This document shows positions 41,096 through 44,801 of a stretch of 64,000 nucleotides of DNA, in pieces. Origin of the DNA: Gammaproteobacteria bacterium (GTDB lineage: Bacteria > Pseudomonadota > Gammaproteobacteria > Porifericomitales > Porifericomitaceae); NCBI GenBank assembly GCA_014238615.1, contig JABAAT010000016.1, forward strand, positions 1 to 64,000, written 5' to 3'. A model generated the notes under the pieces. That model saw only the letters and a list, made by a program, of their open reading frames with translations, had not been told where the DNA came from and searched no databases. How positions within the stretch are numbered: the stretch's first letter is position 1; every line of letters begins with the position of its first letter. The position numbers and the translations under genes are program-made.

Positions 41096-42411
41096 CAGGC
41101 GGCCGCGGGGGTAGCCAGCAGAAAGCCGCCCTCCGGCGCCGCCGCCAGGCGCACTTCCTGGATTTCTCCCAGGGGCGCCCGCCAGCCGCGCGCCCGTACC
41201 GGCAGGTAATTCGGGGTATAGCCCAAAGATTCGCCCGAGGATTCACCCAGGGACTTATCCGTCTTTCCCTCGCGTCGTTGTTCCCACAGCACCGGCAGCA
41301 CACGGTCCTGGTGGCGGGCGATGAAATCCTCGCGCCGCCGGGCGGCCAGGGCCAGCAGCCACCGGCAACGCGCCTTGCGCTCATCCGCCGGAACCTGTTC
41401 CCCGAAGCCCGCCGCCGGTGTATCGGGACGCGGCGAATAGGGAAAGACATGGATGCCGGAGAAGTCCATGCGCTCGATGAAGCGCAGACTTTCCTGCCAG
41501 CGCGCCGCACTCTCCCCGGGGAAGCCGACGATGATGTCGGTGCTCACCGCCAGGTCCGGCACGCAATCCCGGGCGCGCGCAAGCAGCGCGGCGAAAGCGG
41601 TGCTGCGGCCGCGCCGCGCCATGCGCTTCAGCAGGGCGTCGCTGCCGCTCTGCAGGGGCAGATGCAGGTGCGGCATGAGGCGCCGCTCGGCCGCGAACAG
41701 CTCCAGCAACCGGGGCCGCAGTTCCCAGGGTTCCAGCGAGCCCAGGCGGATGCGCGGCACACCGGTCTCATTCAGCAGCAGGCGCAGCAGCTGCTCCAGG
41801 CACAAACCCAGGTCGCTGCCGTAAGCCCCCAGGTGGACGCCGCTGAGCACGATTTCCCTGGTGCCCGTGCTTGAAAGCTCCAGCACCTCGCGCAGAATGG
41901 CCTCGGCCGGACGGCTGCGTTCCTCCCCCCGGGCCACGGTGACGGTGCAGAAAGTGCAGCGATGGCGGCATCCGTCCTGCACCTTGATAAAGGCGCGGCG
42001 GCGCTTCAACGTCGGAGACGCGCAGGCAGCGGGCGAAGCGGAAGTTTCCAGGTCCAGTTTCTCCAGCACCTGCTGCACCAGTTGATCCTTTTGCGCATTG
42101 GACAGCACCAGGTCGGCTTCCTCCAGGGCCGTGGCCGAGGGCTCCAGGGTGGCGTAGCAGCCGGTCACCACGATCCGGGAGTGCGGATTGCCGCGCCGCG
42201 CCCGCCGCAGCAGCCGGCGTGACTTGCGGGCCGCCTCGGCGGTCACCGCGCAGCTGTTCAGGACCAGCAGCGAAGCCTGTTCTGGAGTGGGGCTCAGCCT
42301 CCAGCCGCCGCGCTGAAATTCCCGCCCCCATTGTGCGCTTTCGGCCTCGTTCAGGCGGCAGCCGAGGGTATAGAGGAAAACCCCCGGCGCTGCCTCGCTC
42401 TCAGTCTTCAC
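41095..42411 (-). CDS. mtaB: tRNA (N6-threonylcarbamoyladenosine(37)-C2)-methylthiotransferase MtaB-like
   Basis: YTLGCRLNEAES, VVTGCYATLEP, radical SAM CRHRCTFCTVTVARGEERSR, STDIIVGFPGESAARWQESL. Confidence 0.9.
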   Translation of the reverse strand: MKTESEAAPGVFLYTLGCRLNEAESAQWGREFQRGGWRLSPTPEQASLLVLNSCAVTAEAARKSRRLLRRARRGNPHSRIVVTGCYATLEPSATALEEADLVLSNAQKDQLVQQVLEKLDLETSASPAACASPTLKRRRAFIKVQDGCRHRCTFCTVTVARGEERSRPAEAILREVLELSSTGTREIVLSGVHLGAYGSDLGLCLEQLLRLLLNETGVPRIRLGSLEPWELRPRLLELFAAERRLMPHLHLPLQSGSDALLKRMARRGRSTAFAALLARARDCVPDLAVSTDIIVGFPGESAARWQESLRFIERMDFSGIHVFPYSPRPDTPAAGFGEQVPADERKARCRWLLALAARRREDFIARHQDRVLPVLWEQRREGKTDKSLGESSGESLGYTPNYLPVRARGWRAPLGEIQEVRLAAAPEGGFLLATPAAA

Positions 42412-43375
42412 AGGGAGGGTCTCCCGTCGCCCGCACCCTGCCCAGCAAACCCTCCAGGTGCGTGACTACGCAATCCGGCATGGCGCGCAGGTGATAACCA
42501 CCCTCCAGCAGGGAGAGCACCCGTCCTTCCGCGTGGCGCTCGGCTATCTCCAGCACACGCCGCGTCATCCAGGCGTAGCAGGAGGTGCTCAGCTGCACCT
42601 GCGCCAGCGGATCGTCACGGTGCGCATCGAAACCTGCCGAGATCAACACGATATCCGGCCGGAAGGCTTCCATGGCCGGCAGCACCCGCTCCTGGAAAGC
42701 CGCTTCGTAGTCGCTGTCCCCGGAGGCGGCCGGCATGGGGCAGTTCACGGTAGCGCCGTGGCCGCGCCCCAGGCCGGTTTCCTGCAGCGCGCCGGTGCCG
42801 GGGTAAAAAGGATACTGGTGCAGGCTGATGTAGCAGACCGAGGGGTCTTCCTCGAAGGCGTGCTGTGTGCCGTTGCCGTGATGCACGTCCCAGTCCAGGA
42901 TCAACACTTTTTCCAGGCCATGACGGCGCTGTAGGTAGCGCGCCAGCAGGGCGATATTGTTGAACAGGCAAAAGCCCAGCGCCGCCGCTTTTTCCGCGTG
43001 GTGGCCGGGCGGGCGCAGCAAGGCGAAACCGTTGTCGATGGAGCCGTCCATCAAGGCGTCGGCCAGCTGCAGCCCGGCGCCCGCCGCGAGCAGGGCCACG
43101 GCCTGTGAGTCCGGACAGATCCCCACGTCCGGCGTATCCAAAAAAGGCAGACCCGCCGCGCAGCCGCGCCGGACGTGCTCCAGGTAATCCCCGCTGTGCA
43201 CCGTACGCAGCCATTCCTCTTCCGCCGGGCGCGGCGCGACCTGCCGCAACTCCCCAAACCAAGGCTGGGCCTGCAGCGCCCGCAGGGCGTTTTGCAGACG
43301 CTGCGGCGACTCCGGATGCCCGGCGCCGGCGTGGTGATCCAGGAAGCGCGGTGTATAGCAGATCGCTGTGCTCAC
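42401..43375 (-). CDS. histone deacetylase family protein (class II HDAC-like / acetylpolyamine amidohydrolase)
   Basis: LLRPPGHHAEKAAALGFCLFNNIAL, ILDWDVHHGNGTQHAFEEDPSVCYISLHQYPFYPGTG, LISAGFDAHRDDPLA. Confidence 0.94.
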   Translation of the reverse strand: MSTAICYTPRFLDHHAGAGHPESPQRLQNALRALQAQPWFGELRQVAPRPAEEEWLRTVHSGDYLEHVRRGCAAGLPFLDTPDVGICPDSQAVALLAAGAGLQLADALMDGSIDNGFALLRPPGHHAEKAAALGFCLFNNIALLARYLQRRHGLEKVLILDWDVHHGNGTQHAFEEDPSVCYISLHQYPFYPGTGALQETGLGRGHGATVNCPMPAASGDSDYEAAFQERVLPAMEAFRPDIVLISAGFDAHRDDPLAQVQLSTSCYAWMTRRVLEIAERHAEGRVLSLLEGGYHLRAMPDCVVTHLEGLLGRVRATGDPPCED

Positions 43376-43428
43376 AACAGGACGTGCACCATGTTGTGTT
43401 TTTTCATGCTCCGGATTATATTCAAAAG

Positions 43429-43484
43429 GTCGCGCCGATTTGATTTCAGCTTGCGGGCGCGAAACAAATACAGCTAAAGCGAGT
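43429..43484 (+). ncRNA. SAM-II-type S-adenosylmethionine riboswitch aptamer upstream of metZ
   Basis: tCGCGCC gATTTGatttcagCTTGCgGGCGCGaaaCAAATacaGCTAAAGCGAG: P1 CGCGCC(43431-36)/GGCGCG(43456-61); pseudoknot ATTTG(43438-42)/CAAAT(43465-69); GCUAAA signature at 43473-78; resembles the SAM-II consensus from memory; precedes a Met-biosynthesis gene. Confidence 0.82.
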
Positions 43485-43574
43485 CAGGCTAAGACGCGTA
43501 CGCCCACTTGGTAGAGGGCCGCCACGCGGGGTTTGGCTCGGACACTTGGTTGCGATGCGACCGGAGGTGCGCCC

Positions 43575-44801
43575 ATGCCCGATGACGACCCCATTCTGAG
43601 AGCCCCTTCTCAAGCCGTACCCGCGGCCGTACCGGCAACCGCGCTACAGACCCGTGCTGTACGCGCCGGGCACAGCCCCACCCCGGAAGGAGAGCACAGC
43701 GAACCCCTGTTCCTGACCTCCAGCTTCGTTTTCGAAAGCGCCGAGCAGGCCGCCGCCCGGTTTCGTGGCGACGAACCGGGCAATATCTACTCGCGCTTCA
43801 CCAATCCCACCGTGCGTGCCTTTGAGCAGCGCCTGGCCGTGTTGGAGGGGGGGGAGCGTTGCATCGCCACCTCCTCGGGCATGAGCGCGATCCTGTCCAC
43901 CTGCATGGCCCTGCTCTCCGCCGGTGACCACATTGTGGCCGCCCACGGCCTGTTTGGCACCACCGTGGTCTTGTTGCGCGATGTGCTGACGCGCTTTGGG
44001 GTGGACACCAGCTTTGTGAAGCTGAGTTCCTTACCATCCTGGGAGGCGGCCATCCGCCCCCAAACCCGCATGTTGTTCCTGGAGACGCCCTCTAATCCGA
44101 CCACCGAGATCGCCGACCTGAAATGCCTGGCGCGTCTTGCTCATGCCCACGACGCTCTTTTGGTGGTGGACAACTGCTTTTGCACCCCGGTTTTGCAGCG
44201 GCCCCTGGAACATGGCGCCGACCTGGTGATCCATTCCGCCACCAAGTACCTGGACGGCCAGGGCCGCTGTGTGGGCGGTGCCGTGGTCGGCCCGAAGGAA
44301 CTCCTGGAGCAAAAAGTGCTTTCTTTCCTGCGCGGCGCCGGACCGAGCATGAGTCCCTTCAACGCCTGGGTTTTTCTAAAGGGCCTGGAGACCCTGTCCC
44401 TGCGTATGCGGGCGCACAGTGAACACGCCCTGTTCCTGGCACGTGAATTGCAAGGGCGGCCCGAGATCGATAAGCTCCACTACCCGGGCCTTCCGGAGCA
44501 CCCCCAGCACCAGCTTGCAAGCTCTCAACAGCAGGCCGGCGGCGGTATCCTCAGCCTGGAGCTGAAGGGTGGGCGGGATGCCGCCTGGCGCCTGGTGAAC
44601 CGTCTGCGTCTGTTTTCCATCACCGCCAACCTGGGCGACGCCAAGAGCACCGTGACGCATCCCGACACGACCACTCACTGGCGTCTCACTCCCGGGGAAA
44701 AACAGCAATGCGGCATCACTCCGGGACTGGTGCGCCTCTCGGTGGGCCTGGAAGACCCGCGCGACCTGCTCCACGACCTGCGGCAGGCGCTTGAGAGATA
44801 A
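43575..44801 (+). CDS. metZ: O-succinylhomoserine sulfhydrylase
   Basis: EPLFLTSSFVFESAEQAAARF, IYSRFTNPTVRAFEQRLAVLEGGE, VDNCFCTPVLQRPLEHGADLVIHSATKYLDGQGR; GGAGGT at 43560-43565 supports ATG at 43575. Confidence 0.94.
   Translation: MPDDDPILRAPSQAVPAAVPATALQTRAVRAGHSPTPEGEHSEPLFLTSSFVFESAEQAAARFRGDEPGNIYSRFTNPTVRAFEQRLAVLEGGERCIATSSGMSAILSTCMALLSAGDHIVAAHGLFGTTVVLLRDVLTRFGVDTSFVKLSSLPSWEAAIRPQTRMLFLETPSNPTTEIADLKCLARLAHAHDALLVVDNCFCTPVLQRPLEHGADLVIHSATKYLDGQGRCVGGAVVGPKELLEQKVLSFLRGAGPSMSPFNAWVFLKGLETLSLRMRAHSEHALFLARELQGRPEIDKLHYPGLPEHPQHQLASSQQQAGGGILSLELKGGRDAAWRLVNRLRLFSITANLGDAKSTVTHPDTTTHWRLTPGEKQQCGITPGLVRLSVGLEDPRDLLHDLRQALER

Follow-up and report, generated by a model that had tools for sequence, protein, structure and literature searches.

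A SAM-II-type aptamer before metZ in a gammaproteobacterium and the place of its class among relatives

Upstream of a metZ gene in the 64,000-nucleotide stretch of gammaproteobacterial DNA analysed here (the window), the first-pass annotation had placed a SAM-II-type riboswitch, and the locus raises the question of whether the element belongs to that class, which strands build its pseudoknot and how it might act on the gene that follows. The identity of the gene is clear from its product, an O-succinylhomoserine sulfhydrylase that scores 629.7 bits with NF006003 (cut-off 522) and 546.9 with TIGR01325 (cut-off 510). A MetX-like gene elsewhere in the genome scores 432 bits against a cut-off of 500. 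The divergent neighbor of metZ, 42401-43375 on the minus strand, looks by eye like a histone-deacetylase-type hydrolase and has no NCBIfam match.

The aptamer and its pairing

The aptamer occupies 43431-43483 of the plus strand, 91 bases upstream of metZ. When all 4227 Rfam families are searched with an E-value threshold in place of Rfam's gathering cut-off, RF00521 (SAM-II) matches over its full length (30.6 bits, E 2.3e-5, model positions 1-79 at 43422-43499), and across the whole 1.67 Mb genome this is its one strong match (E 3.3e-5, next best E 2.9). The gathering score of the family is 36 bits, so the element falls below it, and at Rfam's own cut-offs a tRNA is the sole match reported in the window. 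That score is a curator's threshold and not a structural feature; because it is missed, a strict reading of the test by which the first-pass annotation proposed to refute its own suggestion would wrongly reject a true SAM-II. Relatives came from two sources, the RF00521 matches found across genomes of this class and the leaders of metZ relatives, and gave an alignment of 43 aptamers (A1) and a model built from aligned aptamers (R1). A second model (R2), from 41 relatives with this genome and its nearest relative, L035, left out, finds the window element at 43428-43490 with 76.5 bits and E 2e-18, the next place in the window reaching 9 bits. R1, made from gamma- and betaproteobacterial sequences, also recovers matches across the phylum, including outside this class. 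The parts of the aptamer, all on the plus strand, are as follows.

43431-43436, P1 5′ strand, CGCGCC (97.7% of cells paired in 74 relatives)
43437-43443, loop L1, GAUUUGA, near-invariant (invariant in A1)
43445-43455, P2 5′ strand: P2a UUC 43445-43447; P2b U43451, G43453 and C43454; plus G43455
43456-43461, P1 3′ strand, GGCGCG (covariation in 74 relatives)
43462-43470, loop L3 with conserved AAAU at 43466-43469 (A1)
43471-43483, P2 3′ strand with the GCUAAAG signature at 43473-43479 (A1 and covariation)

In SAM-II RNAs of known structure P2 arises by pairing of the P1 loop with the 3′ strand that carries GCUAAA (PMC5352136, PMC1273637); a triplex joins L1 (GAUUUA) to P2b, and L3 lies packed against P1 (PMC5352136). 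Such RNA binds SAM and P2 is needed (PMC1273637). Over 74 distinct relatives 93% of the cells of P1 and P2 together are paired, with double changes at 9 of the 13 pairs, values reached in none of 500 shuffles, and every slid register is far lower. P1, which had been proposed from the window alone, changes on both sides at all six pairs. P2b is 99.7% paired and invariant apart from one covarying pair, G43455-C43471, that appears as GC, AU or CG among relatives, in line with the prediction of Barrick and Breaker (PMC2258182), while in P2a 75% of cells are paired and two pairs show double changes. All seven P2 pairs form in the window: C43454-G43473, G43453-C43474, U43451-A43476 and G43455-C43471 on the P2b side, and C43447-G43481, U43446-A43482 and U43445-G43483 on the P2a side. 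The covariation sought by aligning orthologous leaders is thus present for P1 and for this P2.

It is a different pairing from the ATTTG/CAAAT pseudoknot first put forward as covarying. The segment GATTTGA is indeed at 43437-43443, but its pairing is not P2: neither the 43 nor the 74 relatives have a single both-sided change in it, its G-N pair is broken in 19 of 43 and 25 of 72, and the supposed compensatory replacement of UUUA/UAAA by UUUG/CAAA is mistaken, there being no double change in either set. The complementarity stems from two separately conserved motifs, one in L1 and one in L3. A further suggested pairing, CUUGC (43450-43454) with GCGAG (43479-43483), is complementary as described and shows no covariation. 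The AGCTAAA signature was read correctly, at 43472-43478. The element thus has both the full-length covariance-model match and the core that is invariant in A1 and, with covarying P1 and P2 and with metZ downstream, an arrangement shared by 35 of 82 other metZ loci, it is by its sequence a genuine SAM-II riboswitch and a member of the known class. The call of the aptamer is firm; ligand and direction of control follow from the class, and by that analogy the metZ 5′ leader very probably carries an OFF switch responsive to SAM.

Expression platforms in relatives and at this locus

Downstream of GCUAAAG, in the P2 3′ strand, most relatives have ACCUGCUUUAGC, with GCGGGUUUUUUU after it. An intrinsic terminator is found in 88 of 106 leaders (10-29 after shuffling) and a partner for an antiterminator in 68 of 106 (15-26 in shuffles), GCUAAAG with CUUUAGC being the antiterminator and overlapping the 5′ arm of the terminator. 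The choice between antiterminator (GCUAAAGC/GCUUUAGC) and U-tract terminator would then be decided by the P2 3′ strand: with SAM bound, P2 would take GCUAAAG, the terminator would form and transcription would stop. Such a platform agrees with what was proposed for alpha- and betaproteobacteria (PMC2258182), and in Sinorhizobium meliloti metZ is under SAM-II control with a predicted stop at a typical terminator (PMC9373788).

The leader in the window is built otherwise. Neither a terminator scan nor a custom scan finds an intrinsic terminator in the window, and both the window and L035, which is of the same family, have no U-tract. The features that matter here, again on the plus strand, are these.

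43417-43422, possible −10 box TATATT, weak, which would put the transcript start just before P1
43480-43490, 5′ arm of an alternative helix, CGAGUCAGGCU, excluding P2a
43530-43540, 3′ arm of the alternative helix, GGUUUGGCUCG, making 11 contiguous pairs with 43480-43490
43563-43567, Shine-Dalgarno sequence GGAGG, predicted to be partly paired in a local hairpin
43575-44801, metZ, O-succinylhomoserine sulfhydrylase, from ATG 43575 (TTG 43533 is the start in the open reading frame list)

A consensus scan gives no full sigma-70 site for the leader. The alternative helix competes with P2a. Its 11 pairs are reached by 17 of 2000 shuffles, and L035 has 12 pairs at the same position (21 of 2000 shuffles). 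In folds that end at 43545 or 43560 its probability is about 1, and in longer folds 0.15-0.6. L035 has a strong hairpin over its Shine-Dalgarno sequence, which the 3′ arm of the helix can cover there as well. When SAM is abundant, P1 and the P2 pseudoknot would fold around it and occupy 43471-43483; when it is scarce, the P2 3′ strand would be free to enter the alternative helix and metZ expression would be allowed, so that homocysteine synthesis would be halted once SAM is sufficient. With a terminator absent and a helix competing with P2 common to the window and L035, control of translation is favored for both, and on balance repression of metZ in these two leaders may well act on translation start. 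Folding energies lend this step no support, since masking the aptamer leaves the predicted exposure of the Shine-Dalgarno sequence in the window the same (0.25 free, 0.26 bound), and the least certain point is the expression platform at this locus.

The same aptamer could instead still work through a transcription terminator, or through Rho, which is possible though on the unlikely side. A candidate hairpin at 43495-43528 or 43480-43540 is followed by a poor U-tract (GGGGUUUGG), its position and form resemble the terminators of relatives, and in the class termination is the usual mode; against this stand the missing U-tract, the empty scan, and L035, which also has no terminator and carries its strong hairpin over the Shine-Dalgarno sequence. 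The loss of the terminator could also be taken as a mark of decay, the more so with an Rfam score under the cut-off and with a member of the family whose metZ has no aptamer, and the element would then be a degenerate, non-functional SAM-II remnant. That reading is very improbable: the core nucleotides are all intact, the 76.5 bits are as good as those of terminator-bearing relatives, and most relatives miss the RF00521 cut-off too. A riboswitch of the SAM-V or SAM-II-long-loop kind deserves next to no credence, for the weak long-loop match (RF01726, 16.6 bits, E 0.97) is far from its cut-off of 44, the suggested check against SAM-V (RF01826) gives no match in the window up to E 10, and RF00521 scores far higher.

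Spread, variants and the opposite strand

The SAM-II aptamer of the window is an ordinary element taken singly; it is the comparison with relatives that corrects three records. In the class as defined by GTDB (gamma- plus betaproteobacteria), sampled by 369 species genomes, RF00521 matches at E≤0.01 in 135 and above its cut-off in only 30, and among 20 metZ leaders with an R1 match Rfam reports 6. Of 69 class aptamers, 52 are upstream of the O-succinylhomoserine sulfhydrylase gene, and other genes found downstream are metN, metF, metK, a MetY-type gene and once cysB. SAM-II was reported from gammaproteobacteria, as sporadic, in 2007 (PMC2258182), a 2009 paper gave Alpha-, Beta- and Gammaproteobacteria as its hosts (PMC2704228), and an Rfam-based survey of 2014 had it only in Rhizobiales and Rhodobacterales (PMC4239095); a literature search gave no paper combining SAM-II, metZ and gammaproteobacteria. 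Its presence there is therefore not new, and the rarity on which the first-pass annotation rested its interest was overstated, as about one third of the sampled species of the class have it. It is far commoner than the Rfam cut-off shows, and pipelines that use that cut-off overlook about three quarters of these switches. The family of this genome has three further members in the sample: the aptamer is present in one alone (G001), another (G003) has metZ without it, and in the third (G002) neither was found.

Some SAM-II variants have an extra hairpin in L3, set precisely between AAAU and the 3′ strand of P1. The exact pattern is present in 8 of 369 class genomes, from several unrelated families and with differing hairpin sequences; the loci are L164, L165, L167, L168, L171, L172 and L173-L180. 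Tandem aptamers also occur, the second being weaker (22-49 bits) and sometimes after the terminator of the first, at the following places.

L024, 1509-1571 and 1395-1458, minus strand
L015, L117, L124 and L029, and L170 at about 138-330
G374, contig C1, 10578 and 10719; G630, contig C75, 75319 and 75439

One genome (G360, contigs C8, C9 and C30) has six SAM-II matches. At L126 an aptamer at 110-172 precedes the open reading frame of a CysB-family regulator (390-1508), an arrangement that would tie SAM level to sulfur assimilation.

The DNA of the window aptamer is also matched on its other strand by RF02424, at 43498-43431 (29.7 bits, E 4e-5). Within the class 65 of 66 RF02424 matches are antisense to SAM-II: 56 lie over a SAM-II match (55 of RF00521 at E≤0.01 and one, in G001, of R1), and of the remaining places six have a full aptamer on the facing strand by R1 and three have its P1 half. 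A match above the RF02424 cut-off, L168 at 74-276 of the minus strand with 107.5 bits, lies opposite a SAM-II core whose L3 contains a hairpin. What RF02424, 'Bp2_287', describes is the SAM-II riboswitch read on its antisense strand, and the family should be retired or flipped. The match in the window, and RT-PCR of the family in Burkholderia (PMC3521395), could be read as signs of a small antisense RNA transcribed from the minus strand here; with the 70-bit cut-off not reached, with nearly every RF02424 match opposite a SAM-II aptamer, and with P1 and P2 covariation, downstream met gene and terminators all on the plus strand, this is extremely unlikely.

Comparison with known systems

Quite probably SAM-II is a standard regulator of metZ and metX in GTDB Gammaproteobacteria, the metXZ element discussed below and RF02424, on the wrong strand, are the same RNA, the L3 hairpin marks a subtype, and some lineages, this one for example, have swapped the terminator for a platform at the level of translation.

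The likeness to SAM-II (SAM_alpha, RF00521) lies in P1, the H-type pseudoknot P2, the core of GAUUUGA, GCUUGC, AAAU and GCUAAA, and the position before metA, metX or metZ genes; the differences are a score under the Rfam cut-off and the absence of a terminator in this genome. From the crystallized Sargasso Sea SAM-II RNA, as quoted in the first-pass annotation, the window differs in its L1 motif, with G and not A. The S. meliloti switch shares aptamer class and gene with the window, and differs in the typical terminator predicted there and absent here (PMC9373788). RF02424 (Burkholderia sRNA Bp2_Cand287_SIPHT) is the same DNA as SAM-II, annotated as a small RNA of the opposite strand; its authors proposed a cis-acting methionine element (PMC3521395).

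The metXZ RNA element of betaproteobacteria was described by Leyn et al. in 2014 as a new pseudoknot element with terminators and with its ligand unassigned (PMC4239095). Like SAM-II it is before metX or metZ, with six conserved blocks, a pseudoknot and a terminator/antiterminator (PMC4239095), and Methylophilales metZ leaders are named for it, while a Methylobacillus locus of the present set (L113) carries SAM-II before metZ. It differs in having been described as new and not as SAM-II, and the comparison is with its text description; on that basis the metXZ element is probably SAM-II too, and an orphan element would thereby probably gain its ligand.
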